Assembly: GCA_903813345.2 (NCBI GenBank)
Contig: CAIIXF020000011.1
Span: 31,240,166-31,304,165 of the forward strand
Direction: 5' to 3'
DNA: 64,000 nt
From: Owenia fusiformis
Taxonomy: Eukaryota > Annelida > Polychaeta > Sabellida > Oweniidae
The translations under genes were made by a program, and so were the position numbers. Below the pieces are notes generated by a model. It was given only the letters and a program-made list of their open reading frames with translations. It did not search any database and was not told the origin of the DNA. Every line of letters begins with the position of its first letter. Position 1 is the stretch's first letter. This document shows positions 12,901 through 54,150 of the stretch, piece after piece.

Positions 12901-14300
12901 TTGTAAAAACAGTACATAATACGTGTAAAAATAGTATATGACTGGACTATGCTATAAAATAAGCATTTAAAATTACTGTCACCCTTACATTCTTTTGAGC
13001 ATTTAAAACATGTAAAATTCATCTACTATAGATTGCGTTAATTTGGCGCTACTTAATTTGGCGATGTTGCCATTTTTGGCGGCTTTTTAATTTGGCGGAT
13101 ATGCAAAAAAATGTTAAACCTATGCGCTGTTTGCGAATTACCATGTAAATGGGCATGTTTGGCTTTGTTCATTTTTTCTTTTGAGGACCACTGGCGATAT
13201 TCACCATGTTTGTACATTTTTTTAGATCATCCTTTACATTTTGCACCTCGATCGATGCTGCTACTATACTGCGCTTTTCCTTTCTAGTTTTTCCCTGAGT
13301 ATTAATGAGTGACTGATAGTGGTCGGACTTGTCTGAAAATCTCCACTCGAGTGGGCCATGAAAAACCACGATTATAATCACGATTTGACTTAGTTGAGTT
13401 ACTTCCGGTTTCAGTTTCCCAAGTAGCGGCATAGCACCCTATAGATAGTTAAAGTTCACCCCTAGTCCCCTATAGATAGTAAAACTTACCGAATAAATAG
13501 TGAAAACAAACTTCGTCAATCCAGAAAGTTCCAGGATGCACCGCGGTAGATAAATATTTTAAAATTCCCGGCTGTTGGATATTCCCAGAATGCATCAAAC
13601 CGGAAATGAAACTTTTGCATAAAAATAACGAATGCAGAATAAAATCCGAGTATGTTTGTCTTCTGTACATGGCATTAAATAGAAAATAAGTTGTATTCTA
13701 AACAGATTAAGCAGAACATTACAACTATAAGCATGGAAATTGCGAATAGGAGAGACAAATCGCGAGTCAAGGTAAGGTGAAAACGAGTGAAAAATATTTT
13801 TTTGGTAAAATTTCAAATCGCATTTTCAAGTTTTCAACTCGATCAATTGATTTTTAGGACAAATGCGAGTAAAACTCGAGTACACGAGTCAGTCTTCCAA
13901 CCACTAGTGACTGACCACCTACATAATTTGCGATGACACCAAAGACGCAATAAAAGATCTATACATATATGAAATAGCCTCTTCTTGACGAAGTGCTGAA
14001 ATGCACAATTTAACACGCATCCCCTAAATGGAGCAAAAAGTAGGTTGTGTTAAGTTAACCCACTTCAAGTTCAACTTGAAATGATTTCTTCAGATTTTCT
14101 TGACTTTTAAAAATTATGAAATAAAATCTAACTTACTTTTCCTTGTTTGCTTTAGGTTTTGAAGTGCAAAGTTTTGGTCCAACTGTTGAAATACATCTTG
14201 GTATATTTTTCGCACCTACTTTCGTGAGTATATCAACTGTTTTGGTTGTAGTAGATCGAAATAAAGAACGACACAGAATGTTTCCAACTTTCGCAGCCAT
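9915..14300 (-). CDS. FDX1: Mitochondrial [2Fe-2S] ferredoxin (adrenodoxin type), four exons
   Basis: Minus-strand coding exons are 14300-14137, 12412-12300, 10986-10854 and 10014-9915, giving 169 aa with all splice phases in register. Exon 1 is a basic, Ser/Thr-rich, acid-poor leader ([20 protein letters not shown]) typical of a mitochondrial targeting peptide. Exons 2-4 form the ferredoxin fold: [41 protein letters not shown] and SRLGCQVC. The four cluster ligands are Cys95, Cys101, Cys104 and Cys142. [12 protein letters not shown] matches FDX1 more closely than FDX2. The protein passes electrons from ferredoxin reductase to mitochondrial P450s and to lipoylation/Fe-S pathways in the matrix. 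Its first exon is head-to-head with RSPH3. Confidence 0.95.
10737..10825. repeat. Short hairpin-forming inverted repeat in FDX1 intron 3
   Basis: The arm GATGCAGGGTTTATCC near 10742 pairs with GGATAAACCCTGTATCC near 10803-10819, enclosing a short loop. It lies about 30 bases downstream (minus sense) of exon 3's donor. Probably a tiny MITE remnant. Confidence 0.5.
11274..11693. mobile_element. Non-autonomous TIR element with TA target duplication
   Basis: The ends CAGGGTGTCAA... and the reverse complement ...TTGACACCCTG are flanked by TA on both sides (11272-11273 and 11694-11695). Inverse similarity extends inward to GCATAAACTAG/CTAGTTTATGC. No transposase is present. A TA duplication and CAGGG-type end suggest a Tc1/mariner-mobilised MITE sitting in FDX1 intron 2. 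Confidence 0.7.
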
Positions 14301-14836
14301 ATTGAACTTTGACCTCTAAACCACTTCCGGTTCAGATTTTTGAGCAAATACTTTATTTTTCGTACTTTTTATGGGGTACAAAAATATACTTTTAATTTTT
14401 TATTGATTTTATTATATCACTGGATAGTTCTGTATTCTTTTCACTTCGCAATATTTGCACAAATTATTTTCCTCGACTTTGGGAGAAGTGCAAGAGATTA
14501 GTTATTATTGCCTAGCAACCAGTATTGACGTAAACATTGAAAGTGATTCCGATTTAAGAAATAGTTCTTATATTTTCTTATGTGTTTTATCTCTTTATCA
14601 AATAAAAATATTCATAAAATAGACGGATTAAATAGTAATCGAAAATATGAGTTGATATTTTCTTCAAATTAGGCTACAACCTTTATTAAAATAAGCAGAA
14701 AGAACTACTTTTGCTTCTTGCGCGTTCTTGAGAAAAGAGTAAATCGGCAAGCAACAAGAAGGATACACTAAGATTTGGAAGAGAAGCATTAGAAACACTT
14801 ATATTGTCAAGAACTACTCACTAAAATTCCCCAATC
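14301..14836. promoter_or_regulatory. Divergent FDX1-RSPH3 promoter region
   Basis: Only 536 bases separate the two start codons, which face away from each other, so regulatory sequence is probably shared. On the FDX1 side CCACTTCCGG (14321-14330) is a textbook ETS/GABP core, common at genes for mitochondrial proteins. On the RSPH3 side an RFX X-box match lies at 14507-14519. Assignment as a promoter is inferred from gene arrangement and motifs. Confidence 0.6.
14507..14519. promoter_or_regulatory. RFX X-box match upstream of RSPH3
   Basis: ATTGCCTAGCAAC fits the X-box consensus RYYNYY-N(1-3)-RRNRAC with a one-base spacer and no mismatch. It lies 318-330 bases before the RSPH3 start. RFX factors drive many ciliary genes through such sites in nematodes, flies and vertebrates, and RSPH3 is a motile-cilium protein, so motif and gene fit each other. 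Confidence 0.55.
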
Positions 14837-17353
14837 ATGGCTGCCATACTTCCCCCAAAACAACAAGGAACATACACATTCGCTAGTCAACCGAGAGCAG
14901 TAAGACAGAGAAAGAAATATAGGGATGGAGAAGAAGAGTAAGTTTTACTTTTACATTTTGAAACATGATCAGATTTTGAATTTTCACTTTTCAGATTTCA
15001 GCATTTGAGTTAATTGTTTCAACATCTACTTTGAATGGACCTTGAAGAACAATGTCAAACTATATAACCTGTCAGCCTTTTACAATGAATGAAAGGTTCC
15101 AATTCCAAGAAATGTCACAATTGTTGTGTGTTGAAATGAAAATACTGTCTGCTGTTTTATGATTTGGTTCAGTGTTCAATTTTGCCTTCCAAGTTTAATT
15201 AAGATACGTAATCTTGTGTTAGTATACTCAGTATTTACAAGAAAGAATTGAGGTTAAATGATTCGTTATTATTTCTTGTCATTTAAACATAATTTATTTA
15301 TTTTTCCAGTCCCAACAGCAGCCAGTATGGAAACATCATGTACGACAGAAGAATTGTGCGTGGAAACACATATGCCCAACACACGCTACCAGCTACAGCC
15401 CAGCCAGATCCTATTGAACTTCAACGTCAACAAGAACTGAGGCGTCGTGCAATGGCTAGGAAACGTGCAAAGGAACAACTTAGACCAAGATCCCCTGAAG
15501 CAGTCGAAGGACGAAAACACATAGATGTCCAAACAGAACTGTACCTAGAAGAATTAAGTGATCGTGTTGAGGAAGCTGATGTTGATACTCAGACAGATGC
15601 ATTCCTGGACAGGCCCCCATCTCCCATGTTCATTCCAGCAAAGACTGGTGTTGATATTGAAACCCAGATCTTAGAGGGAGAACTTTTTGATTTTGACATT
15701 GAGGTTAAGCCTATTCTTGAAGTCCTAGTAGGTAAAACTATAGAACAATCTCTTCTTGAAGTAATGGAAGAAGAGGAATTAGCTAACCTTAGAGCACAAC
15801 AGAGAGCCTTTGAGGAGCTGAGAAATGCTGAACTTGTTGAACAACAGAGACTTGAAGAACAAGAGAGACGTCATCGGGAAGAGAAGGTGATTGTCCTCTT
15901 CAGAATAAAACATATTATATAGAACTTTAACAAGTTAATAAATGGCATCCTTATATTTTTAAAGATATTTATCAAGATTATGCGATATCGTTATTTGTTT
16001 TATGCATATAAATTATTTATTGCTGCAGAAAGCAAATTAAAATATTGAGATTCCTCATTTAGTGTAAGAAATCCACAATTCAATATGGATCTTAAAATAC
16101 GGAATATGAAATTTTCTATAAACAATTCATTTCTTTAAATCAACATAATTTTTATCTTGTAGGAGAGAAGAATGAAGCAACAAAGAGAAATTCTCAGGAA
16201 AGAAAAAGAAACTGCAGACAAAATCTCAGCTCGTGCATTTTCTCAAAGCTACCTTGCAGATCTCGTACCCTCTGTATTTGGAACACTATCAGATAATGGT
16301 TACTTCTATGATCCTGTAGAAAGAGGTAAGGATTATTAAATTATTTTCTAAGCTTCACATATTTCAGGATCATAATTCTTGGCATTTAAATTCATTCGAA
16401 ATGTCTTGAATAAAAACCTGTACTCATGTATATGTAATAAAGTTGCTAAATTATGTATTTGAATCATTAACTGGCTCACAGTCAATTATCAGAATTTTGT
16501 AATAGCTATCACCGAAACAATGTTATGTATAGCCTTAAATGTTCCTTATAATTAAGGCTTATGGCTTTTGGCTTTTCTTATAGCTCTCTATATTGATGAA
16601 AAAACTTTGAATTTCAGATTGTGAACAAGGTTTTATGCCATGGCTGATGGATCGTGTTGAAGAACAACTGGAGAAGAATGTGAATGGACGTACAGTACTC
16701 GATGGAATTCTCCGAGCAGTTGTCCAGTCTCGTCATGAGGCATTTAAAAAATTAGAAGATGCAATAAGGCAGCAACAGTTAGCTGAGTTAGCAGCACAAC
16801 AAATAGCAGAGGAGAAAAATCGACCTGTTAGTGTAGAAGGTAGCAAGGCTGCTACAGAATCTGGAGAAACTGAAAAACCAGAGGTAGGCTGACATTATAA
16901 ATGTTGTGACATCTGTAAATGTGAAAAATTATTACTTTTTTTTATCATTTTTTATCAATTTATTTCATCATATATGGAGTGCCAATCGCTTTTTAAAGCA
17001 TTATAGACTGAGTTAGCAAGAAAAACTCAAAATAGTTTTGAGACAAATTTGATTTATTGTATTAGAAAAATCAAAAGGCAAATGTTTAATGTAACTGGTA
17101 CAGCAATGAACTTTTACAGAAATGAAGTTGATGGGATATCCAAATATGAGATTACACCATGTGCACATTTGTTTTGACAAGTGTTCTTGGATGTTCATAC
17201 TGAATCATATTAGCATCTAATCAACCGCTTTTTTGTACACTTCAGAGTGAAAAACCTGCAGAAGATGAGACAGCAGCTGTAACAGAGCCAGATACAGAAG
17301 TAGAACAAGAGCCGGAGGGAGGAGTAGGGGAGGAGGAACAGCAGGAGGAATAG
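14837..17353 (+). CDS. RSPH3: Radial spoke head protein 3, five coding exons
   Basis: Coding exons are 14837-14937, 15310-15886, 16163-16325, 16618-16883 and 17246-17353, giving 404 aa with GT-AG ends and matched phases. Family signatures include YGNIMYDRRIVRGNTYA, DVQTELYLEEL, DTQTDAFLDRPPSPMF, TGVDIETQILEGELFDFD and PWLMDRVEEQLEKNV. The predicted amphipathic segment around residues 172-193 (VLVGKTIEQSLLEVMEEEEL) lies in the conserved region that in Chlamydomonas RSP3 carries the helices binding RIIa/DPY-30 proteins. Long Glu/Arg-rich helices follow; the last exon is an acidic tail. The protein anchors the radial spoke to axonemal doublets and acts as an A-kinase anchoring protein in motile cilia and flagella. 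The start is the first ATG of exon 1 (MAAILPPKQQGTYTF). Confidence 0.95.
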
Positions 17354-24800: not shown

Positions 24801-27800
24801 AATTATTGATATGGTCCTTAGTGAATCATGTATTTACCCTGTGAAACCATTGGTGGTACTGTTAGGGGATCTTCAAACCTCATTTTCTTGATATTCAATG
24901 AGCACAATATGGCATCCTTATCTTGTAGAGTTGGCTCGATAGAAGACCCCTTATTTGCTGAGAGGACAACACACATCTTGCAACGATTTATCCGCACACG
25001 TCGTAAATCTGCCCGACACAATGGTGACCCCTATAGTAAAAACAAATAACTATAGATGAAAAAGTAACTGACAGTATACAATATAATTCGATAACGCGAT
25101 CTACGATAATAAAAGTAACAAATCCTTAGATTTGGTTTAGTTGGCATATTCCCTGACCCAAATTCAGAATGGACAACGCTTTCAAAATAATGAACAAAAT
25201 CAATCCTGTTGAATCTGTGTAATAACGATTGGCATCAAATAATAGTTGTCAATATTGTTAGAAACCATATTCTAAATCAAGACTTCTTCTCTCAACAATC
25301 TCTATTTATCCAGGTAAAGTAAAAAAGAGGTTAACACATTAATTTGCAAGTCACAATGAAACTTTGACAAAATGCAGCTCAACAGCTAACAATTTAAATT
25401 GACATAAATTCAAACTTACAGGTAAGATATATACATCAGGAAAGTTTCCCAAAGTTTTCCACTCCTTTGAGAGGTAAGAATGATGCCCTACAATGACAAC
25501 TGGCTTAAGTTCTGTAAGACGTAAACTACTGGCACGTAGCGGCATGACAAAGTTTGAGAGGCCTATAACAGGAGAGTCGCTGTCTGAGAGGACACAGACA
25601 ACAAAGTGGTCCCTCAAGTTTTTCAATATCAATTCATTTTTCTGGTTGATCTGAAAAAGAAGCAATAGAGAGAAATAAATGCTTGAATAATGAATTAAAC
25701 CGCCAGAAAACTAGATCATTTCAGAAAACTGAATACTTCAATAAAAATAGATGATACAGCTAAAACTTTTAAAGCGTGAATAATGAAAAAGAACACATTA
25801 TGTTCTCCTACATTCCTAAAAATACTTAATTTTCTTCAGAAACAGAATTCTCTCAAACAACTGAACCACATCTTTTGTGATAGCACTTACAATGTTACTT
25901 TCATCTAAGCTAGAGTCTGGGCACCAGTAGAAACACCCAGTAGCATCAAACTGCTCTTTGCTCTCCCTAACCTCAAGGTAAGGCTTATTGTCTTCAAAGT
26001 TAGCATCAATAATCCTACAACATAGAGTAGCTCAATAATCAACCATCATACTGATAATCATCCTTCTTCAAGGGACTTCATTTATGTTTAAATTCAGAAA
26101 ATAAGTGAAATACCCTTGGACCAGGGATGACTTATAATGTCATTTGCAATGTTTATCCAACCCCATGGGTTCAATCTTTTGGAATTACATTTTAAAGTTA
26201 AAACAGTACTGATACAACTATGGGGTACCTAGGAAGCTTTATACAACAATACGTCATCAAACTACATGGTCAAGCAAAAACAAAATCAATTAATGCAAAA
26301 TTAAAGTTAAATTAAACGGCAACTTAATACAGAAATCAAAATTCTTACGTAATTGGAATGTCGCTACCACCAGGACTACTTTTTTCACTCTCGCTATGAC
26401 TCTCTGTAGCACTGGTAGCGCCACCTTGAGGCACATCAATGTGAATTATTGCGGGTGATACGGCTCCACTCTCTGTTACACTATTTGTGCCATCAGATCT
26501 ACATGAAATCAATTCACTAATAACAACAACAAAACCAAGCATGACGAAATAAAAGTACAAGTTACATAAAATAAAGCTCATATTTCGACAGGCATGAAAA
26601 CAATTGGTTCGAATATGACTCAAAATGGTGTCTAATTTGGACTTTGACAGTTTGGGGAAAACGCAAAATTTGTTTTCAGGCCTGAAGTATTAAAACAATA
26701 TATCACTTAAACAAAACTAAAATAATTTCAACTCTTTCAGCAACACAAAAGTATAATGTAAAAATACCACGACAAATTATTTATACAAAATACAATTATA
26801 TCTTAAAATTAATAGGTTAGTATCAAATAATGTACTTCCAGCACCAGGTTAGTTGATAAGTCATGAAAAAGTATCTCAAACTTTTTATTGAGTATTTTTG
26901 CTTGAACATTCTCTTCTTGTAGACCATGCAACATTTTCAAATTACATCTTTGATTAAATGCTCAGTATTGAATTGAAACTTTTTCAGAACCTATAAAAAT
27001 ATATTTTATAGAGTAAGTGCATAGCTATCAAGAGTCTGAGCGAAGGAAAGATCGTGTATTCTAGAATCTTCAAAAAACGTTCAACTCTAAATCTAAGTTC
27101 TACATCTTTCAAAGTAATCACACAAACATTTTCCAAGAAAAAATATATTTTTAGAACATGTATTATATTGTTAATAATCTATTCGATAGGATACGGCCAA
27201 CACGTCACATACATGAGCATTGCACACCTTAACCTAAAAAGAAACTATGAAGTCAGCTTTAAATATACTTCTCCCTCATATCCATAGAAGCCTAATAACA
27301 GGCCTGCTCTCTCGGCAATCAAGGAGTTAAAGTTTTCAGTACATTACATTATGTGTATTCTTTATTATCTAAACTGAGCCCATCAAGAACTGGAACCTCA
27401 ACCATGGAACCTTACCCCATGACTAGGCTCAAGTGGACCTTAACCCATGACTGGACTTAAACAGTTCTTACCTCATGACCTAAGTGAGGCCTAAGTAGAC
27501 CTTACTTCATGACACGGCTCAAACAGGGGGTCATTAATAGAAACTTTGTAAAGTTAAGAATTCTCAAATCAATTGTTTTAACCATGGATATAATGACTTC
27601 ATATTGAGAGAACAATGGATTTTAGGAATTCCCAACTTTACTAAGTTTCTGTTTATGATCCCAGATCTTACCTCATGGCTAGGATTAATCACACTTTAAA
27701 CATTAACTAGTCTTAAACATACCTTACCTCAAGACTAGGCTATTAGCGTACCTTAACCCATGGCAAGGTGAAAGTGGAAATTACCTTATGACTAGGCTAT

Positions 27801-30800
27801 AAGCGTACCTTAACCCATGGCAAGGCCTAAGTGGACATTACCTTATGACTAGGTTATTAGCGTACCTTAACCCATGGCATGGCCAAAGTGGACATTACCT
27901 AATGACTAGGCTATTAGCGTACATTAACACATGGCAAGGCCAAAGTGGACATTACCTCATGACTAGGCTATTAGCGTACCTTAACCCATGGCAAGGCCAA
28001 AGTGAACATGACCTCATGACTAGGCTATTAGCGTACCTTAACCCATGGCAAGGCCAAAGTGAACATGACCTCATGACTAGGCTATTAGCGTACCTTAACC
28101 CATGGCAAGGCCAAAGTGAACATGACCTCATAGTCATGACTAGGCTATTAGCGTACCTTAACCCATGGCAAGGCCAAAGTGGACATTACCACATGACTAG
28201 GCTATTAGCGTACCTTAACCCATGGCAAGGCCAAAGTGGACATTACCTCATGACTAGGATTAAGCGTACCTTAACCCATGGCAAGGCCAAAGTGGACATT
28301 ACCTCATGACTAGGCTATTAGCGTACCTTAACCCATGGCAAGGCCAAAGTGGACATTACCTCACAATTAGGCTTAAGCGTACCTTAATCCAAGACCAGGC
28401 CTAAAAAGACATTACCTTATAACTAGACTTAAACGTAGCTCCCGTTCTGCTTCAAGTGACAGTCTTTCATTTCCTTCTGTGTTAGTAAAACATAACATAT
28501 TGGTTAAAGCAAACTTGACATAAGTATTCTTGCATAGAGTATGTGGTCCCCCACATATCTAATCTGGGGGGTGTTGATGCAACACTAAGATTAGTATTCT
28601 AACACTCACAGACATGCAATTTTGGTACACTAGAATACATTAACAAATAGCTAGGCATGCATTACTACATTTTGACCAATTAGAATGCAGTACATGCTTA
28701 TCTACAGTATGTCTAAGTGTAAGGAGTATTACCTACATTACTTCATAGTTTGAACACTTTCTAAAAATTGCTTATGATAATGCATCCAACTACAGTACTA
28801 TTTTACTAACTATACAACTACAATTATTATGAAAATGAAAGAGTAACTATGTAACATTAGAACTTAGGCTCCTATGATGTATTCAAGCATCGCAATGACC
28901 TGAAAGAATGGCCCACATGCTCTATCACAATATTCTTTAATTCTGAATAATAATTCTGAATTATACTTAAATAAAATGTGAAGCTTTATACAGGATGAGT
29001 ACAAAAACACCCTTGGTATACGCAGCTAACGAAAATTTCGGTACGGGTCAAAAGCTGGACCGGTACGGGTTAACGGTTTTATTTGAATTTAAAACAGCCA
29101 TAACTTGCTCAATATTGACTTCCTCGTGTCTAATTTGAAATATATGATGCCTCCCGATGCTTTTAAGTACCCCAATTTTTTACAGATTTTTAAACGGACC
29201 AAAACTCTCTAAATGCGCATTTATGCTCTTTTCTCTCGAGAACGACTGTCTCATTTTCACGATAACTTTTATTTAGTACTTCTAACATATAAGATCTATT
29301 TTTCCCCATCAAGGTATGATTTAAATGACATGCTATTTACATCTTGTGAGTTTCAATGACGCGCGTTTGATTTTATAAAAAATGCCAAACTTTGTGACAA
29401 AGAATTTCATCAGCTATTGCCCCGAACCGGTCCGTCTTCTCGCTGCAAGTAGATTGCCCCGAACCGGTCCGTCTTCTCGCTGCAAGCAGGATGAAATTCT
29501 TTGTCACAAAGTTTGGCATTTTTCATAAAATCAAACGCGCGTCATTGAAACTCACAAGATGTAAATAGCATGTCATTTACATCATACCTTGATGGGGAAA
29601 AATAGATCTTATATGTTAGAAGTACTAAATAAAAGTTATCGTGAAAATAAGACAGTCGTTCTCGAGAGAAAAGAGCATAAATGCGCATTTAGAGAGTTTT
29701 TGTCCGTTTAAAAATCTGTAAAAAATTGGGGTACTTAAAAGCATCGGGAGGAATCATTTATTTCAAATTAGACACGAGGAAGTCAATATTGAGCAAGTTA
29801 TAGCTATTTCAAATTCAAATAAAACCGTTAACCCGTACCGGTCCAGCTTTTGACCCGTACCGGTCAATTTTCGTTAGCTGCGTATACCAAGGGTGAAAAA
29901 TGGTATCAAAATAATTCATATATCATCTTGATTTTCTCTTGAATTGTACCCATCAGTGCACTATTCATGCATCAGATCTTGGGGGTATTAGATTTTGAGA
30001 TATTGTATCTAGTATCATAGGAGCCTAGCCTCAATTAGAACTATATTATACTAACTATTGTGAAATCACAATGCACGATGCCTGTCTATATCATAAGAAC
30101 TTCAATACAAGCACACCTACCCAGTGTTGTTATTCGGGCGTTTGAATAATTTGTTTGATAAAAATCCACCATCAGCTTCCAAAGGGTCAACCACTGGGTT
30201 ATTATGAGCATTGATTAGGGTGCCATCTATAAACAAAAACCCACACCAGGCATGCATTCACGTGTGTTAGGACATAAATTCACATTCATTAAATAATTCC
30301 ACAATTTTTTAACAGAGGTTAAAAGTAGTGAATATTTTTTGTACATTTCTATATTTCAATAAAGACTAGATTAGGTATATCACCAAGGTGCTAAATACAA
30401 ATTCAATTTGAGTCATTTTCCAGGAACTCTTACCCTTTTCCTTCTCTGCCATAGGTAAAATGCCAGCATAAAGAAAGATTAAATTGAACTGACCACTTTA
30501 ACCTCAGTAAAACAAAACAAAATGCACACAGCAGTGTTGTAAGAAATAATGATGTTATATACACAACATTTTACAAAATTATGGTAATAATGTCACAAAC
30601 TGTATAAAATACATTTACAGAATCATGTTACCAGAACGAACAAGAGTTGGTTGATTACCTGTTGAGCAAGTGCAGTCTTTAATGCGTTTCACACCAAATA
30701 GCTGACCATGGCATAGTGGGCAGTATATTGATGCTCTGGAATAAAACACACAAATATGTGAGCACAATTTTGCCAAAAATGCGAAATTTATTTTAATCTA

Positions 30801-33800: not shown

Positions 33801-36800
33801 ATCCCACCGAACGGCAGTTGAGTTACCAAAGATTACGAAAATGAAAATGAAAAATGGCAGCCATTCTGAAGATCAGCCGCCATCTTAAAAAAATTTTCTC
33901 GAACAGAGCTACTGTGTTTCTAGGCATCAGCATATAAAATTTGAACCAAATCTGTTCACTGGTATTTGACTTATCAAAGATTACGTTTTTTCTTATGAAA
34001 AATGGCTACCATTTTGAAATTCAGCCGCCATCTTGAAAAAATTTTCTCGAACAGATCTACTGTGTCCCTAGGAATCATCATATAAAAATGAGCCAAATCT
34101 GTTCACTGGTATTTGAGTTATCAAAGATTACGTTTTTTACGAAAAATGGCGTCCATTTTGAAATTCAGCCGCCATCTTGAAAATTCTTTCTCGAACAGAT
34201 CTCCTTTGTCCCTAGGCATCATCATATAAAATTTGAGCCAAATCCGTTCACTGGTATTGAGTTATCAAAGATTACCTTTTTTACGAAAAATGGCCGCCAT
34301 TTTGAATATCAAGCCGCCATCTTGAAAATTCTTTCTTGAACAGATCTATTGTGTCCCTAGGCATTATCATATAAAATTTGAGCCAAATCCGTTCACTGGT
34401 ATTTGAGTTATCAAAGATTACCTTTTTTTACGAAAAATGGCCGCCATTTTGAATATCAAGCCGCCATCTTGAAAATTCTTTCTTGAACAGATCTATTGTG
34501 TCCCTAGGCATTATCATATAAAATTTGAGCCAAATCTGTTTACTGGTATTTGAGTTATCAAAGATTAAGTTTTTTTACGAAAAATGGCTGCCATTTTGAA
34601 ATCTAGCCGCCATCTTGAAAATTTTTACTGGGACATATCTACTGTGTCCCTAGGCATCAGCATATAAAATTTGAACCAAATCCGCAAACTAGTATTTGAG
34701 TTATTAAAGATTACATTTTTTACGAAAAATGGCGGCCATCTTGAATTCAGTGGCCATATTGAGAATTCCTTCTCGAGCAGAGGTCCTACACCCATAAGGC
34801 ATAAGCCTATAAAATTTGAATCAAATCCGTGAAACGGTATTTGAGTTATCGCCCGGACAAACAGACGGACGGACGGACAGACGGACGGATGGACGAATGG
34901 ACGGATGGACGGACGGCTTTCCTATATCCCTCTCGAACTTCGTTCGGTGGGATAACCAACCTAGGTATAATCTGTATCATCATCTAATCATATCTAATTC
35001 ATCCCACTTTCATACTCACTCTACAGCTTGGGGGAATGTCATGCCATAGAAGGCTCTGGAGAAGTATTCCGTATATAGCTCCATACCAAGTCCACTAAAG
35101 TAATTGTTCTTCCATTCATCATATCTGGAAGACTGGAAAATATGAACACATTTATGGATTACAACAATCAGGAGGGATTGAGGTATAATGACACTGACGA
35201 AAATACTAATATACTCCTTGGAGCACATTTTATTCCATCAAACTGGTAGATAATGAACAACTATAAATTTAATTAGCTTGTAGACTCAAATTCATGTTTG
35301 CTTTATATTTAGCCTATCGTTTTAAACCCTAATCCACATTTGACCTTGACCTTCCTTCTTACATGCTAATTCAAACATTACACAAATTACAAACACTCGT
35401 ACTCCAGTATACATACCTTTTTATGTGATGTCATCATGAAGAGATTCGCCATGAGAGTTGAGAATCCAGGCGCAAGACAGGCCTGGGCTATAAATCCTAA
35501 CTTCATCTCAGCCAAGCAGATAACACTGTCAGACTGCATATGCCAGTCAGGGATGTTGAGCAAATAATTCTGAAAAAAAGTACAAAGTTCACCTACCAGA
35601 ATAAACAGTGCAAGAAGATGTCAGAATAAAAGTGGCAAAAATGAAAAGTTGCAATCTTTTCTGCATTAGATAATAATTTCCCAGCACTGTGTAAATGTTG
35701 TAATGCTTTAAAGGGAGTGATGGAATTTACATCACTATGGTGACCCTTGACACTGATGACACTTACTTTATTATGATATTGCAGCAGTTGTATGATGATG
35801 CTCACATCACCATGGTAATCCTTGATGCTGATGACACGCATGATGTTGGCAGCATCCTCAGCATCAGGATTATCACAGTGTTTATTTGCCAGCAGCAAAA
35901 CAGCATCAGCCTCTTTTAACTGAAAAACAAATATTATATAGCGGATTCTGAAACAGTAAATATTTTTAAAATTATGAAAAACTAAATATGAACAAGATTT
36001 GATTTATGCGGCACCCATCTGCCCATCAGCACAAGAGGACAGCAATATAGCACTTTTTCAAAGTGCAATAAAAAGGGAAGATACTTAAGATGCTTATGAA
36101 ATGGCAAAGATTCATATGTACATTGTATATTTTTCTGTGTTATTACTGTGAAATATTACAAACAAATGTTCTGGACGAATAATCTAAAGAGATATCATTG
36201 GAGCTGTTAAGCTCAATTAATGTTTCTCATTTAATACCTTGACTCTATCTAAGTCCTCAGACACCATGACAGAACCCTCATAGAACCGCACATGTGTATA
36301 GTGACGTTTCATCAGGGCTTCAAGTTCAAGGTTTGGTGGCTCTCTGTAAATATATATTCATATGTTGTCAAAGACATATATTTAAAAATAGTGTTCAGGT
36401 GTTCTTGTTTTTAACAGACCAAAGTATTTAAGGTTCTTCATGATATAGAGATATAAGTCTTCCATGATATAGAGATATAAGTCTTCCAAAGACTATTTTT
36501 AATCAGAAAAGAAACATTGAATGAATTCTGAATCATGATCTTCAAAAAGATAATTTACACATTGAACAAAAAGAATAAGAAAAATACAACAAATGCCTCA
36601 AAATTGGCTGATCTGCAATAACAGTTACATCTATGTCAAAAAGATGACATGAAAAATGTAAATTAGACTTACGTGTGTAGGAAAACGATCATGACATCTC
36701 TGTCTTCTTGGTCTTGATGAAGGAACTGAGCAAGAAATTTTTCAACTGTTCGAGTACTTATGTGACCACACACAACTATGTGCCTAAAATATAGAATATT

Positions 36801-45800: not shown

Positions 45801-48800
45801 ATAGAATGAAATAAGGTAGAAAGCTGGGATTGGGAACCTTGAATTGACGGCTCCCACATGACAATGGCATCATTGAGGCATGCCAAAGATTATGTATTCC
45901 ACTCATTCTTAACCTACTGGGTGTGGCATAAGTGCTGTCAAAGAGACCTTAAGCCAAATCGAACAAATGCAAAAAAATCTCTGCAATGTGTACCTTTCTA
46001 TATGTAACAATTTTCAAAAGAAACAAATCCCACTGACTTACAGACTTAGAACTCTCTTTGAAGGGATCAGTCTATAAGGAACAATTTTTGCTAATACTGA
46101 GCATGTTTCATATAAAGAAGTTTTATTGAATACAAAAAAGTATCCCAACTTCAAAGGCAGTTTACTAAAATTCTGAGCAATATTTCTGAAATAAAAAGGT
46201 AGCAGTAAAATGCTTAGTTTGTCCTCTATCAAATGGTACCTAGATCATTATGTAACTGTCATGAAAGACTTCAAACAATTATGACTTTTTTATGGACTGC
46301 CTGAATAGGAAAATAACACAGAATCTGGTCAAGAATTCAATTTTACCTATAGGTCTACAACCCTTTTGATGCACCTTGTTCTGAACTGTCATTATCATAG
46401 AGTCATAAAATGAGTTTTTGTCAAATGAGTGCATACTTTTAATATTAGCAAAATTGGAACCCCAAATATACAACGTACATGATTTTGGAAAACTTACCGA
46501 GCCAGTTTCTGTTGAGATAGACAGCAACAAAGACAGGAGGAACTGTGAAGTAATCCACTATGGAATATATATCTATCCAAAACATCAACTTGTCATTGGC
46601 TGCTACAAACTGAAATGTACACAAAGTATAATAATTATGATTGAAAACTTTAAAGAAAAAATGGTACAAAGGATAACTTCATTACTGCTGGTAAGAGAAC
46701 TTGATACAGTAACATTACAAAAGAGACCTTGATACAATACTGTTATGAAAGAGAAGTTGTACTTTTACAAAATAAGACATGATAAGAAGTGATACAGAAA
46801 AACTTGATGCATTACTGTTACAAAGAACTTAATAGCGTCCCTACAAATGAGAATTGGATGAAAAGTTTTTTACCAGGAATATCTATCATGATTTCATTTA
46901 AACCATTGTTCTATACTGAATTTTAAAACCACACTGAATTTATATTTTTTACATGCGTTTGACAAATGTTAGTATTTTTTAAAATAACAAACTTACCCTG
47001 ATGAAGAAATAGAGAAGGAAAAATAAATTGATGGCAAGGTCTATTTGTTGGGTATAACTCTCTAACCATGGAGTGCAGTCTTCTACATCATGCCTATAAC
47101 ATTAATATAAATACAGTAAGGTCTATTTGTTGGGTATTACTCTCTAACCATGGTGTACAGTCTTCAACATCATGCCTATAACATTAATATAAATACAGTA
47201 AGGTCTATTTGTTGGGTATTACTCTCTAACCATGGTGTGCAGTCTTCAACATCATGCCTATAACATTAATATAAATACAGTAAGGTCTATTTGTTGGGTA
47301 TTACTCTCTAACCATGGTGTGCAGTCTTCAACATCATGCCTATAACATTAATATAAATACAGTAAGGTCTATTTGTTGGGTATTACTCTCTAACCATGGA
47401 GTGCAGTCTTCTACATCATGCCTATAACATAAATATAAATACAGTAAGGTCTATTTGTTGGGTATTACTCTCTAACCATGGAGTGCAGTCTTCTACATCA
47501 TGCCTATAACATTAATATAAATACAGTAAGGTCTATTTGTTGGGTATTACTCTCTAACCATGGAGTGCAGTCTTCAACATCATGCCTATAACATTAATAT
47601 AAATACAGTAAGGTCTATTTGTTTGGTATTACTCTCTAACCATGGAGTGCAGTCTTCTACATCATGCCTATAACATTAATATAAATACAGTAAGGTCTAT
47701 TTGTTGGGTATTACTCTCTAACCATGGAGTGCAGTCTTCTACATCATGCCTATAACATAATATAAATACAGTAAGGTCTATTTGTTGGGTATTACTCTCT
47801 AACCATGGTGTACAGTCTTCAACATCATGCCTATAACATTAATATAAATACAGTAAGGTCTATTTGTTGGGTATTACTCTCTAACCATGGAGTGCAGTCT
47901 TCTACATCATGCCTATAACATTAATATAAATACAGTAAGGTCTATTTGTTGGGTATTACTCTCTAACCATGGAGTGCAGTCTTCAACATCATGCCTATAA
48001 CATTAATATAAATACAGTAAGGTCTATTTGTTGGGTATTACTCTCTAACCATGGAGTGCAGTCTTCTACATCATGCCTATAACATTAATATAAATACAGT
48101 AAGGTCTATTTGTTGGGTATTACTCTCTAACCATGGTGTACAGTCTTCTACATCATGCCTATAACATTAATATAAATACAGTAAGGTCTATTTGTTGGGT
48201 ATTACTCTCTAACCATGGAGTGCAGTCTTCTACATCATGCCTATAACATTAATATAAATACAGTAAGGTCTATTTGTTGGGTATTACTCTCTAACCATGG
48301 AGTGCAGTCTTCTACATCATGCCTATAACATTAATATAAATACAGTAAGGTCTATTTGTTGGGTATTACTCTCTAACCATGGAGTGCAGTCTTCAACATC
48401 ATGCCTATAACATTAATATAAATACAGTAAGGTCTATTTGTTGGGTATTACTCTCTAACCATGGTGTACAGTCTTCTACATCATGCCTATAACATTAATA
48501 TAAATACAGTAAGGTCTATTTGTTGGGTATAACTCTCTAACCATGGAGTGCAGTCTTCGACATCATGCCTATAACATTAATATAATATAAATACAGCAAG
48601 GTCTATTTGTTGGGTATTACTCTCTAACCATGGAGTGCAGTCTTCGACATCATGCCTATAACATTAATATAATATAAATATGGTCAGACAAAATGTCAAC
48701 ACCTGGTATTTCAATGGTAAGTAAAGTGACAAAATGTCAACACATGGTATTTCAATGGTAAGTAAAGTCTAACAGCTTGTTACAGATGGTAAAGTTGTAC

Positions 48801-50570
48801 TTGTATTAACATTGAGCAAGAAACATTGAAACATGAACTTGTCTGACAACAATCAACGATGATGCTGAACATTGACCACTAGGGATGGGACACAGGCCCG
48901 TAGCCAGGGGGTTCGATGGGTTCAAGCGAACCCCCCATGCCAAAAAAATCTTTCAAAACCATGCAGTTTTTCATCATTCTGAGCACTCTTAAATGATTTT
49001 TGCCATTTTTGGACCAAAATTGTCACAAGTGAACCCCCCCCTGGAATTGTCACAAGCGAACCCCCCCTGGAATTGTCACAAGCGAACCCCCCTTGGCAAA
49101 TCCTGGCTACGGGCCTGGGACAGTTACCCAAAACTGTCCTGTTCTGCAGCAATGTATTTGGTTTTGGTATCAGATCTCATCACATAAGGTAGCACTTTAG
49201 GAATGGGAGAGGACACATCAATCCCTTTGATGCCATTGTCATATTTGCTTCTGTCAATCTTTGACACCGATGCCTGGCCGATGAGTATTTTGTTAAAAAC
49301 TGAATGCAATTTGAACAAAATACTTATTGGCCAGGCGCAGGTACTAAAAATCTAAGGAAACTCTTCTTAAGACCCTTAACAGGTTTTAAGAGGGTTATAA
49401 AATTCCATACCCCTATTTGAAGGGCTTTTAAGGTCATATCTGAAAATAATTGCTGCTGTTAACATGGCCAAGGGGGACACATTGACTAGTAATGTGGTGT
49501 AAAATTGAACTTTATTTTGACAAAACACTAACTTTTAAAATAACTGTAACTTTTTCTCATTAGGGAATTAAACCATGATATTTGGCAGATTAATGTAACT
49601 TTGGATAAGCTTTAAGATGATATATGACACATACTATGAGGACACTGGAAAATGTCTGTCTAGGGGGCTCCATACTTTCGGGACACCCTGTACAATGTAT
49701 GATGTGATGACAATTATGACATATTAATAATACACTTACCAGCTTGCATCAATTAGATAAAGCACCAGTGAACTTAGACTGAGAATACATGACAGGGTCA
49801 CCTGGAAGCAGAAGAGTACAAACATCCTAAAGACATTTAGACAAGTTTGTAGAACCATGATTGTCAGGCCAATAAAGAAAGATTCATTCCCCTTACATAT
49901 TTCATGACAACCTGCAGTTTACCCCATTTAATTGAAACTTCATGCAAGACTAAAATCTTAAGAAAATATTTCGAAAAGACACTGTATATTATATATTACA
50001 AAACGTATAGAAGCTAAACCTACAGTTATATGCTACATGCTGTATTTTGCTTTGCTCACTTTATGTAAATGATTTAATATTTTTGTACAAAATTCAATTT
50101 ATAAACATTTTTATGCATTAGATTAATATTCAAAAGAACCAAACATATATTTTTGAAATAATAAAACTTACCAAGACTCGTCCTGTGACTGTTTGCCCAG
50201 ACACTAACTCAGCAGCTCTGCTATGAGCCATTGTGCCAAGAGTCGCCTCTGCAGGCTCCTTAGCACTAAGACGACGAAGGTCATTTTCATTATTAAGAAC
50301 ACCATTCTCCTTCTTGGTATTTTTCAATATCTCAATGGTACTTGTTTGAAAATCAACGTTTTCATTGACATACTCCAAGGGTTGTGTGGATTTTAGTCTA
50401 TTTTGGTGACGCAGTTTTTGCTGCAGTCGACAAAACTGGATCAGGCGTACAAGAAGAATAAGAATGAGGCCAGCTACGAAGGCAACCAAACTGGAGGCCA
50501 GGAAGTAGTACCAGTGCCGATTCTGAAGGCATTCTTCCTTCGGGGAAAGTGAAGTCCCGTTATCACCCAT
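21778..50570 (-). CDS. slo: SLO/BK-type calcium-activated potassium channel alpha subunit, 24 coding exons
   Basis: Minus-strand exons: 50570-50172, 49801-49740, 47093-46997, 46609-46498, 42427-42276, 41837-41670, 41336-41248, 36783-36673, 36343-36238, 35919-35767, 35569-35417, 35132-35020, 31337-31185, 30735-30659, 30226-30121, 26498-26349, 26014-25891, 25650-25420, 25030-24838, 24492-24418, 23865-23735, 23380-23180, 22830-22660, 21855-21778. Phases agree throughout and the frame yields 1134 aa. Order: extracellular N terminus with an NGT sequon, S0 (about 20-42), S1-S6, filter TVGYGD (305-310), KHIVVCGH opening RCK1 (360 on), RCK2, calcium bowl [11 protein letters not shown] (949-959). This plasma-membrane channel couples voltage and Ca2+ to K+ efflux. 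S4 reads [12 protein letters not shown], so the arginine equal to human R213 is alanine. The tail is short and ends TSNV. BK-like family is certain; it is probably a divergent paralogue, not the canonical slowpoke orthologue. Confidence 0.94.
22418..22618. mobile_element. 201-bp TIR element with 5-bp target duplication (copy 1)
   Basis: The ends CAGGACTGTAGCCAGG and CCTGGCTACGGGCCTG are inverse repeats. The flanking pentamer ATAAC is duplicated (22413-22417 and 22619-22623). The element sits about 36 bases downstream of the donor of the channel's penultimate exon. A related copy lies at 48893-49117 in opposite orientation. Confidence 0.75.
23460..23545. repeat. 86-bp hairpin in SLO intron
   Basis: TATCAAAAGTTCATCTATCA at 23460-23479 is exactly inverted at 23526-23545 (TGATAGATGAACTTTTGATA), leaving a loop of about 46 bases. 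Likely a very short MITE. Confidence 0.65.
23735..23865 (-). CDS. slo: SLO exon encoding the calcium bowl
   Basis: This exon encodes [12 protein letters not shown] followed by [18 protein letters not shown] in RCK2. The aspartate string matches the BK calcium bowl (human QFLDQDDDDDPD), including the distal D...D positions that bind Ca2+ in BK. The donor is GTCAGT, less usual than the GTAAGT found at most other exons of this gene. SLO3 channels lack an intact bowl, so this argues for the calcium-gated SLO1 lineage. Confidence 0.9.
27690..28440. repeat. 57-bp minisatellite in SLO intron
   Basis: About twelve tandem units containing GACTAGGCTATTAGCGTACC and CCATGGCAAGGCCAAAG repeat with a 57-bp period. 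Degenerate units extend upstream to about 27370. Because 57 is a multiple of three, open frames run through the array on both strands (a 19-residue repeat beginning [11 protein letters not shown] on plus). These are not taken as genes. Confidence 0.85.
29008..29895. mobile_element. 888-bp near-perfect palindrome (foldback element)
   Basis: The ends CACCCTTGGTATACGCAGC and its inverse bound two arms of roughly 400 bases that are almost exact reverse complements. The centre (29419-29490) holds a twice-repeated CCCCGAACCGGTCCGTCTTC segment. AAAAA flanks both ends and may be a target duplication. No coding capacity. High arm identity suggests a recent insertion or active arm homogenisation. Confidence 0.8.
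31402..32339 (-). pseudogene. Mariner element with internally deleted transposase
   Basis: The TIRs CGAGGGGTGGTCCAAAAGTC and GACTTTTGGATCACCCCTCG are flanked by TA (31400-31401, 32340-32341). The minus strand encodes an N-terminal fragment from about 32125 joined to a C-terminal mariner motif (SLDMAPCDF), then stops and frame breaks. The middle of the transposase, including most catalytic residues, is missing. The element lies 65 bases upstream (minus sense) of SLO exon 31337-31185. Confidence 0.75.
32540..33690. repeat. 162-bp satellite array in SLO intron
   Basis: About seven tandem units, each with TGGTTTGGCTGAAAACCTG, GACAAGTCTTGAAAGTGAAG and CAAAATGGCCACCTTAAAAT. The spacing between the TTTGGCTG motifs is 162 bases. 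Units are highly similar; the first near 32520 is more diverged. Confidence 0.85.
33820..34860. repeat. About 146-bp satellite array with repeated GCCGCCATCTTG
   Basis: Seven tandem units begin GAGTTATCAAAGATTACG and contain ATGGCCGCCATTTTGA, CAGCCGCCATCTTGAAAA and GTCCCTAGGCATC. The array ends in TCGCCCGGACAAACAGACGG and a (GGAC)n tail. Single degenerate copies occur at about 7770-8090. Confidence 0.85.
34858..34920. repeat. GGAC microsatellite
   Basis: A run of GGAC/AGAC/GGAT tetramers follows directly on the 146-bp satellite. It is the recurring end of this repeat family. Confidence 0.85.
36868..41122. mobile_element. 4.25-kb foldback transposon with TA target duplication
   Basis: The ends GTGAGGTAGCACCGAAAAAT and its inverse are flanked by TA (36866-36867, 41123-41124). 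Terminal arms of about 400 bases are followed inward by units of about 360 bases (motif AAGTGTCAAAGACCAT at about 37347, 37704 and 38071, inverted on the right side). A unique centre at 38330-39660 carries decayed coding sequence. The element fills nearly the whole intron between SLO exons 41336-41248 and 36783-36673; the remaining intron sequence is only about 200 bases. Confidence 0.8.
38340..39450 (-). pseudogene. Decayed transposon-associated ORF inside the foldback element
   Basis: On the minus strand, in order, broken frames give [19 protein letters not shown] with DFLDPF, then [18 protein letters not shown], then [16 protein letters not shown] and LKGKG. I recall the order (DLG...NPF...PVPW.LATPDG...LLGLHAFTG...KGK) from a widespread invertebrate transposon-linked protein family that I cannot name with certainty. 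Several stops and frameshifts are present, so it is inactive. A further frame on the opposite strand at about 39480-39660 ([17 protein letters not shown]) resembles the C-terminal part of the same family, implying an internal inversion. Confidence 0.45.
41670..41837 (-). CDS. slo: SLO exon encoding pore loop and selectivity filter
   Basis: This exon encodes [10 protein letters not shown], then [19 protein letters not shown], then S6 up to FFIIGAL. TVGYGD is the potassium filter. The S6 glycine pair of BK (GG) reads GA here. Acceptor and donor (TTAG/GTAAGT) are canonical and both phases are 0. Confidence 0.93.
42046..42235. repeat. GTGGAACACCTC repeat with inverted end
   Basis: Several direct copies of AGTGGAACACCTCT, followed by an inverted GGTGTTCCACTTACACAGG. 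It lies just downstream (minus sense) of the S4-S5 exon. A related pattern of GAACACCTCTC occurs at about 60590-60690. Probably a decayed MITE. Confidence 0.5.
42276..42427 (-). CDS. slo: SLO exon encoding S4, S4-S5 linker and S5
   Basis: It encodes [18 protein letters not shown] and, after KKNSVIRLW, an S5 ending AGAGFIHL. Ungapped alignment to human BK (LRFLRALRLIQFSEILQF) keeps R207 and R210 equivalents (R226, R229), changes R213 to A232 and E219 to D238. Confidence 0.92.
43384..44340. mobile_element. TIR element of about 0.96 kb in SLO intron
   Basis: The left end AACGCAACAAATTGTTATC and a right end whose inverse reads AACGCAACAAGCAGTTATC begin arms of about 95 bases or more, both containing ATTTCATTTAATGTACCA. 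Inside, a segment with ACCAAGTT and GCGAAAGTCAGTG is repeated in direct and inverted orientation. No intact ORF. Confidence 0.6.
46997..47093 (-). CDS. slo: SLO exon encoding S1-S2 loop and S2, parent of the 82-bp minisatellite
   Basis: The acceptor TTATAG is followed by G|CAT, giving [20 protein letters not shown] and the S2 sequence [10 protein letters not shown], with donor GTAAGT at 46996-46991. It is the only one of the repeat copies that continues into a full S2 and a good donor, so it is taken as the functional exon. The D153 and R167 equivalents of human BK are retained. Confidence 0.92.
47039..48685. repeat. 82-bp minisatellite derived from a SLO exon and its splice acceptor
   Basis: About twenty tandem units with an 82-bp period. 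Each (plus strand) contains AGGTCTATTTGTTGGGTAT, CTCTCTAACCATGG, and CATCATGCCTATAACATTAA. Read on the minus strand, each unit contains the acceptor TTATAG plus the first 58-59 bases of exon 47093-46997, then diverges to intron-like sequence. Unit one is the real exon. The last units carry a 5-base insertion. Confidence 0.93.
48685..48770. repeat. 41-bp tandem duplication
   Basis: Two adjacent copies of a segment starting GACAAAATGTCAACAC and ending GGTAAGTAAAGT, directly beyond the 82-bp array. Differences are minimal. Confidence 0.7.
48893..49117. mobile_element. 225-bp TIR element with 5-bp target duplication (copy 2)
   Basis: The ends CAGGCCCGTAGCCAGG and CCTGGCTACGGGCCTG are flanked by GGACA on both sides (48888-48892, 49118-49122). 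It is the same family as 22418-22618, in opposite orientation, with a short internal duplication of AATTGTCACAAGCGAACCCC. Confidence 0.75.
50172..50570 (-). CDS. slo: SLO first coding exon (N terminus, S0, S0-S1 linker)
   Basis: The start at 50570 sits in AAAAATGGG. An in-frame TAG lies 11 codons upstream, and a 3' splice site (TTTTTCAG) ends at about 50604, so this is not the first transcribed exon. The peptide begins [14 protein letters not shown], with the extracellular sequon NGT, then S0 and a cytoplasmic linker of about 85 residues that ends GQTVTGRVL, matching human AQTLTGRVL. Confidence 0.92.
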
Positions 50571-52320: not shown

Positions 52321-54150
52321 ATAATAGTATAGTTTCTTGGGGCCATTGGAGGCCATCGTACAGCTTCTACTAGGGGCTATCATATAGCTTCTGGGTCTAC
52401 TGGAGGCCATTCTATATCTTCTGGGGGCCACCGTATAGCTTCTGGGTGCCACCATATAGCTTCTTGAGGCCATCGTATTGCTTCTTTGGCCCACCATGTA
52501 GCTTCTTGGGGCCACTAGGGGCCCCTGTATAGCTTCTGGGGGTCACTGTAAAGCTTCTTGGGGCTATTGGGGCCTACCATATAGCTTCTAGGGCTACTAG
52601 GGGCCCTTTGTATATCTTCTGGGGGCCACCATATAGCTTTCCGGGGCCACTGTATAGCTTTAAGGGGGCACTAGGGGCCACTGTATAGATTCTGGGGGCC
52701 TTTGGGGCCCACCGTACGGTTTCTCGGGGCTATCATATAGCTTCTGGGGCCACTGGGAACCATCATATAGCTTCTGGGGGCCACCGTATAGCTTCTTGGG
52801 GCCATCATATTGCTTCTTTGGCCCACCATGTAGCTTCTTGGGGCCACTAGGGGCCCCTGTATAGCTTCTAGGGGCCACTGTCAAGCTTCTTGGGGCTACT
52901 GGGGCCCGACATATAGCTTCTGGGGGCTACTAGGGGCCCTCTGTATAGCTTCTGGGGGCCACCATATAGCTTTCCGGGGCCACTGTATAGCTTTAGGGGA
53001 GCACTAGGGGCCACTGTATAGATTCTAGGGGCTACTTAGGAGGGCCCTGTATAGCTTCTAGAGGCCATATTGGGGACCACCGTACAGTTTCTGGGGGCTA
53101 ACATATAGCTTCTAGGGCTACTGGGGGCCATCGTGTAGCTTCTGGGGGCCCTTTGTATATCTTCTGGGGGCCACCATATAGCTTTCCGGGGCCACTGTAT
53201 AGCTTTAAGGGGGCACTAGGGGCCACTGTATAGATTCTGGGGGCCATTGGGAGCCACTGTACAGTTTCTGGGGGCTATCATATAGCTTCTGGGGGCTATC
53301 ATATAGCTTCTGGGGGCTATCATAAAGCTTCTTGGGGCTACTGGAGGCCATCCTATAACTTCTGGGGGCCACCCTATAGCTTCTGGGGGCTACTGGAGGC
53401 CATCCTACAGCTTATTATAGCTTCTGGGGGCCATCAAATAGCTTCTTGGGCCCACCATATAGCTTCTTGGGGCCACTAGGGGCCCCTGTATAACTTCTGG
53501 GGCCACTGTAAAGCTTCTTGGAGCCACTGGGGGCCACCACATAGCTTCTGGGGGCTACTAGGGGCCCTCTGTATAGCTTCTGGGGGCCATCATATAGCTT
53601 TCCAGGGCCACTGTGTAGCTTTAGGGGAGCACTAGGGGCCACTGTATAGATTCTGGGGGCTACTCAGGAGGGCCCTGTATAGCTTCTGGAGGCCATATTG
53701 GGGACCACCGTACAGTTTCTGGGGGCTAACATATAGCTTCTAGGGCTACTGGGGGCCATCGTGTAGCTTCTGGGGGCCCCTGTATAGCTTCATGGGGCCT
53801 CCTATAGCTTCTGGGGGCCACCATATAGCTTCTAGGGGCCATTTGGAGCCCCTATGTAGCTTCTGGGGGGCCCTGTATAGCTTCTGAGGGTCACCATATA
53901 GCTTCTAGGGGCATTTAGAGCCCCTGTATAGCTTCCGGGGGCCAACATATAGCTTCTGGGGGCTACTAGAGGCCCCTGTATAGCTTCTGGGGACCACCTT
54001 ATAGCTTCTTGGGACCATTGGGGGCCTTTGTATAGCTTCTGTGGCTACTGAGGGCCACCATACAGCTTCTGGGTCTGGGAGCCACTATTTAGCTTCTGAA
54101 GGCCACTTGGGGCCCCTGTATAGCTTCTTGGGGCCACTGGGGACCTAGTA
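52320..54150. repeat. GC-rich minisatellite at the palindrome centre
   Basis: About 1.8 kb of variable units built on TATAGCTTCTGGGGGCCAC with interspersed CTAGGGGCCCCTG. Higher-order repeats recur, for example the block near 52480-52700 again at about 52810-53030 and 53430-53660. Composition differs sharply from the AT-rich surroundings. Open frames through it are repeat artefacts. Confidence 0.85.

Follow-up and report, generated by a model that had tools for sequence, protein, structure and literature searches.

The minus strand of the window (the whole stretch of DNA that we analyzed, 64,000 nucleotides) contains a gene for a Slo1-type (BK-type) calcium-activated potassium channel. Directly upstream of its S2 exon, inside the intron that precedes this exon, lies a tandem array built from the exon's own 3' splice site and first bases. 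We think that this array is a minisatellite of the mirage type, that unequal exchange among its copies is probable, and that its resemblance to coding sequence is mostly due to inherited sequence and chance (with a probability of roughly 0.75 for this reading).

The channel gene was identified from translations. Three of the seven translated pieces that we tested have matches in Pfam: to the ion-channel pore, the Slo RCK domain, and the BK alpha family. The protein joined from the S1 to the pore exons matched the slowpoke chain 7pxe (phmmer, E = 6.6e-79), including across the spliced join, and it also matched the BK chain 5tj6 and alpha-1 chains. We take 7pxe to be from the fly, 5tj6 to be from Aplysia, and the alpha-1 chains to be mostly human. 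The phases of the S1 and S2 exons agree: the final TG of one and the first base (G) of the other form a Trp codon across the splice. The window has a GC content of 34.5%, and GC3 is 30-43% in three coding pieces (30% in the radial spoke protein 3 piece described below); the low GC of the window and of this piece would argue against Branchiostoma. The features in and around the array are as follows, with slashes marking splice junctions.

49740-49801, minus strand: S1 exon, which ends in TG; donor CTG/GTAAGT; phase matches the S2 exon
48687-48768, no strand assigned: 41-bp two-copy tandem repeat that adjoins the distal end of the array (TRF)
48683-48687, minus strand: CTGAC, which resembles a branch point and precedes the most distal copy; presumably native; putative role
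47094-48679, minus strand: 19 decoy copies, each with an AG acceptor, 58-59 bases from the start of the exon, and about 24 bp of intron (more before copies 1 and 2)
47116-48513, minus strand: CTTAC, which resembles a branch point and is present at all 18 unit junctions that precede copies 3-20; putative role
46997-47093, minus strand: true S2 exon (copy 20 of the array), 97 nt; donor AGG/GTAAGT
46498-46609, minus strand: the next exon (S2-S3), which ends in G; donor TCG/GTAAGT

TRF reported a tandem array at 47036-48672 with a period of 82 bp, 19.9 copies, 96% matches, and 0% indels. Our direct parse found 20 copies of the exon start, namely 19 intronic copies and the true S2 exon. Both results bear out the first-pass annotation, which had described a minisatellite made from a channel exon at 47039-48685, with about twenty copies on the minus strand and an 82-bp unit that contains the splice acceptor as well as the first 58-59 bases of the SLO exon (the S2 exon; ATAG is present in all 20 copies).

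By its anatomy, the array fits a rarely described kind of minisatellite that is known from amphioxus, and would be a well-preserved member of it. In the available portions of two papers (PMC3087553 and PMC3902484), "mirages" are minisatellite-like tandem repeats over an intron/exon boundary; they were named in amphioxus Adh (both cite Canestro 2002 as the original paper on Adh3) and are also described in the globins BflGb6 and BflGb9, PGBD5, and troponin C. In the Slo1 array, too, the unit crosses the boundary: the direct parse found ATAG/GCATGA and exon bases in all 20 copies. The copies are spaced by 82 bp, with two exceptions (87 bp from copy 1 to 2 and 81 bp from copy 11 to 12), which is within the 10-160 bp given for mirage units in the text of PMC3087553 available to us. 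The authentic exon is intact at one end of the array, where copy 20 runs on into the full 97-nt exon and its donor GTAAGT.

The closest match in layout is BflGb6, whose unit combines the 3' end of an intron with the 5' part of an exon, as far as the accessible text of PMC3087553 and PMC3902484 describes it. The same portions of these papers state that many mirage copies, though not all, keep their splice signals, and that cluster edges escape homogenization. In the Slo1 array, the intronic part is longer in copies 1 and 2, which form the distal edge, than in copies 3-20. The Slo1 array differs from the amphioxus mirages, as they appear in those portions, in lying in a channel gene and in having 20 copies, versus 6 and 3 repeat units in the BflGb6 haplotypes (PMC3087553, PMC3902484). 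In the literature that we searched, with subscription papers mostly beyond reach, we found no like array in a potassium-channel gene or outside amphioxus.

We also compared the array to two other systems. First, in the model of Rogers (as cited in the available part of PMC3087553), introns are gained by tandem duplication of proto-splice sites. The Slo1 array likewise repeats exon DNA together with a splice signal in tandem, but its unit contains an acceptor and no strong donor, so nothing points to a new intron at present. Second, some genes contain tandemly duplicated, mutually exclusive exons. The Slo1 array resembles these in that exon sequence of an ion-channel gene is repeated in tandem, but its copies are near-identical, truncated exons that lack the native donor.

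The first-pass annotation had proposed that the copies are or were used as exons, which is improbable. When we joined each decoy acceptor to the true donor, translation reached a stop in all 19 cases (at codon 27, 28, or 55), and the stop was mostly the TAG contained in the acceptor of the following copy. An array of alternative exons needs a credible donor in each copy, but the best donor-like site in the unit, ATG/GTTAGA, scored just 3.4, whereas the true donor scored 10.5 and four other donors of this gene scored 7.7-10.8. (Scores from this donor matrix rank sites and are not calibrated.) We also considered whether the Asn variant described below creates a new donor, AGA/GTAATA: it scored 0.39, compared to -4.3 for the Tyr form, which is far under the gene's donors.

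The branch-point-like CTTAC begins 26-27 nt before the exon start in copies 3-20. Copy 1 has CTGAC, a good branch-point motif, 28-32 nt before its exon start, and the junction before copy 2 reads CTTGC, which is not branch-point-like. Because CTTAC is present at 18 of 18 junctions, while elsewhere on this strand only 89 of 3358 AGs have CTNAC 20-35 nt upstream, the real S2 exon probably uses a branch point that derives from the array.

Across the 20 copies, five of the 58 exon-derived bases vary. Three of these are synonymous third positions: site 10 (Val), with A in 11 copies, T in 7, and C in 2; site 19 (Cys), with C in 16 and T in 4; and site 22 (Thr), with T in 14 and A in 6. The other two sites are non-synonymous: site 38, which encodes Asn in 18 copies and Tyr in 2, is recurrent, and site 44 encodes Gln in 19 copies and Lys in just one. 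These counts agree with the earlier description of repeated, synonymous variation at the Val, Cys, and Thr sites, and with its statement that the only amino-acid changes are the Tyr/Asn split (Tyr in two copies) and one Gln-to-Lys. The further claim that the recurrent variants are all synonymous was incorrect: Tyr/Asn recurs as well (2 of 20 copies), so synonymous sites make up three of the four recurrent sites and three of the five variable sites. At the Tyr/Asn position, the slowpoke chain has Ile and 5tj6 has Thr, and among these sequences the residue does not look conserved. At site 10, the change from GTC to GTT falls in a CpG (GTC GAA, so GTCG to GTTG), a context that may make it mutable. 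The intronic part of copies 3-20 has one substitution and one deletion, each confined to one copy.

To compare these counts to chance, we used sites or variant types, not copies, as the units of evidence: descent or exchange has given different copies the same variants, which leaves five sites as the evidence instead of twenty copies. There are 174 possible single changes in the exon part (with TG/G as the first codon), of which 30 are synonymous and 144 are non-synonymous. The probability that at least three of five variable sites would be synonymous was 0.039, 0.063, or 0.081 (for kappa of 1, 2, or 3). For at least three of four recurrent sites, it was 0.018-0.039, and for at least four of six variant types, it was 0.010-0.027 (both for kappa of 1 to 3); all of these P values are post hoc and take the events to be independent. 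If the genetic code is ignored, then finding at least three of five sites at third codon positions has P = 0.22. A larger proportion of the possible synonymous types than of the non-synonymous types was used (4/30 versus 2/144, Fisher P = 0.009, or P = 0.037 with copies 1 and 2 omitted). The synonymous proportion was also above that in the intronic part (1/72, P = 0.025), with P = 0.06-0.075 in sensitivity variants (0.075 without copies 1 and 2). These counts are small, but they lean toward the first-pass annotation's view.

Purifying selection should lower the non-synonymous rate. However, this rate (2/144) equals the rate in the 24 intronic bp of the same units (1/72; P = 1, in a comparison with low power). 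If the junction base is counted, then the non-synonymous rate is lower, but not significantly so, than the intronic rate, which becomes 2/72 (P = 0.60). The intronic yardstick is from copies 3-20, as the intronic part of copies 1 and 2 is longer, and the substitutions tallied there exclude the one-base deletion before copy 12. What stands out is the high synonymous count, rather than a clearly low non-synonymous one. Thus, when the synonymous count is set against a random expectation, as the first-pass annotation had proposed, there is a marginal, suggestive excess of synonymous changes, but the expected depletion of non-synonymous changes is absent. The claim that this is intronic DNA with a coding signature is not sustained, since non-synonymous changes are not depleted relative to the array's own intronic part; the coding signature among the copies is weak, and the array carries little weight as evidence for coding selection in intronic DNA.

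In the preferred reading, the array would have begun with a tandem duplication of a segment that contained the 3' splice site plus 58-59 bases from the beginning of the S2 exon. CCAT is common to the exon and the intron near both breakpoints and may represent microhomology, although the junction itself differs at two bases. The array would then have grown to 20 copies and been partly homogenized by unequal exchange or conversion, as suggested by the near-identity of the copies and by their four-gamete combinations. These combinations are found at two of six pairs of sites (10 with 19 and 10 with 22), within 9-12 bp. Exchange between copies is likely, but repeated mutation at site 10 would give the same four-gamete result. 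A test of copies 3-19 (17 of the 20; lags 1-8) gave no spatial autocorrelation (lowest P = 0.06), so neighbor-to-neighbor duplication is invisible in the order of the copies. A period-4 or period-5 order was suggestive by eye, but the permutation test was null (its lowest P, 0.06, came at the last of the 8 lags). Finally, the recurrent synonymous variants would represent a few mutations, one of them possibly at the CpG (GTCG to GTTG), that were spread by exchange, and their synonymy would be mostly chance.

As for splicing, the decoy copies would be intronic, and under exon definition the cell would take the last acceptor because it is 97 nt from the only strong donor. A decoy that was joined through to the true donor would, by translation, yield a truncated protein. 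The CTTAC at the junctions (versus CTTGC before copy 2) would place a branch-point-like site at 24 nt from the start of the exon in 18 units, including the true exon, and splicing of the real exon may now rely on DNA of the array. For BflGb6, the authors took their RT-PCR results, together with data for Adh3, to indicate undisturbed regular splicing, and they also noted that the copies could serve as cryptic sites (in the available text of PMC3087553 and PMC3902484).

We considered three alternatives to the mirage reading. First, the first-pass annotation had suggested that variants arose in the constrained exon and spread by exchange, so that synonymous alleles of the exon seed the array, which then shows variants that passed selection. 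Exchange is likely, as discussed above, but an origin of the variants in the exon seems unlikely. Three of the four recurrent sites are synonymous, as this explanation would have it, but the exon in the window has none of GTT, TGT, or ACA. Also, the exon and copy 19 agree at just one of the five variable sites, so the exon is not the recent source of its neighbor. (The 5-bp difference in length between copies 1-2, which are long, and copies 3-20, which are short, could have arisen in either direction and so is not proof that the exon joins in the exchange.)

We also ran two simulations of a 20-unit array. These were simple single-lineage models with parameters that we chose, and runs were kept only if they had 4-6 variable sites (195-1444 runs per setting). 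The synonymous fraction was 0.16-0.17 without constraint and 0.19-0.23 if amino-acid changes in the exon were rejected; it reached 0.38-0.39 only if a large extra supply of synonymous polymorphism was given to the exon. Patterns of the observed type (at least three synonymous types and at most two others) arose in 1.0-2.8% of neutral runs, in just 1.9-4.5% of retained runs with exon constraint and no extra polymorphism, and in 19-20% of retained runs with copying from the exon and a high supply of polymorphism. When all new copies came from the exon, 79% of recurrent variants were synonymous, but three recurrent synonymous types were seen in 0 of 937 runs. Because the simulations need large added polymorphism in the exon, the observed pattern favors exon-seeded exchange only under a generous assumption.

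Second, a shorter repeat might have been inflated or reshuffled during assembly; a similar amphioxus array was apparently misassembled in a genome draft (according to the accessible part of PMC3087553). We consider this improbable: the copies differ in their combinations of variants (9 distinct haplotypes among 20 copies), the proximal end continues into the intact exon, and the window contains no Ns. The distal flank is not a firm anchor, as it is itself a two-copy repeat.

Third, and very improbably, the array might be a bank of 19 frame-keeping, 27-nt microexons (acceptor AG/GCATGATG..., donor CCATG/GTTAGAG) with mini-introns of 54-60 nt, in which selection on the peptide keeps the variants synonymous: in all 20 copies the 27-nt stretch keeps the frame, matches in phase, and encodes a single peptide, and it contains all three synonymous sites, while the Tyr/Asn and Gln/Lys sites lie outside it, in the would-be mini-intron; but this reading was found post hoc, the donor is weak (3.4, versus 7.7-10.8 for five donors of the gene with the same matrix), scores as high are found at 14% of the 3584 GTs on the minus strand, and a frame-keeping GT of that score is available to 382 of the 3489 AG starts there. 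If it were true, then each inclusion would add nine residues (HDVEDCTPW) in frame to the S1-S2 loop of the BK channel, the length of the minisatellite would set the length of the loop, and changes in the mini-intron would go free.

To look for further arrays, we compared 23 approximate exon regions (with bounds set mostly by eye) to the window. The S2 exon region matched its array. Among the other 22 regions, 17 had no copies elsewhere in the window; four matched nothing beyond short inverted or distant stretches (the ferredoxin-like C-terminal piece, the second RSP3 piece, and pieces at 25.4 and 23.2 kb); and one, the RCK1 exon at 35.8 kb, was copied in direct orientation in the intron beside it:

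35729-35837, minus strand: decayed exon-edge duplication at the RCK1 exon of the same gene (exon part 35804-35837, intron part 35729-35762)

This duplication covers 34 bp at 85% identity (29/34) with an offset of 75 bp, and the intron copy begins just past the donor. In 200 mononucleotide shuffles, the maximum was 23/34. Because the decayed copy beats all 200 shuffles, exon-edge duplication has probably occurred twice in the channel gene, with the RCK1 duplication being the older one.

There were no matches to Rfam and no tRNAs, and a scan of viral contigs for the array unit gave no matches. Upstream of exon 1 of the channel, a GC-rich region (52400-54100, about 51% GC) contains degenerate 20-31-bp repeats (of the GGGGCCACCATATAGCTTCT type). 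Another minisatellite, with 12.3 copies of a 57-bp unit, lies at 27724-28426 between channel-exon-like pieces, and open reading frames cross parts of it on both strands. The gene for radial spoke protein 3 (RSP3) is at 15293-16892 on the plus strand. We take the minus-strand pieces at 10850-14315 to resemble mitochondrial ferredoxin; the two of these ferredoxin-like pieces that we tested had no match in Pfam. Similarly, by its translation, a plus-strand piece at 846-1283 (YLSANCVLLTYFNGDIATNVDEHFTKAL) presumably resembles the TDU motif of Vestigial-like proteins.

With 19 near-identical acceptors before one exon, the Slo1 array offers a natural test of 3' splice-site choice by the spliceosome. 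If the host is not an amphioxus, then mirage arrays would reach beyond the animals covered in the available portions of PMC3087553 and PMC3902484.
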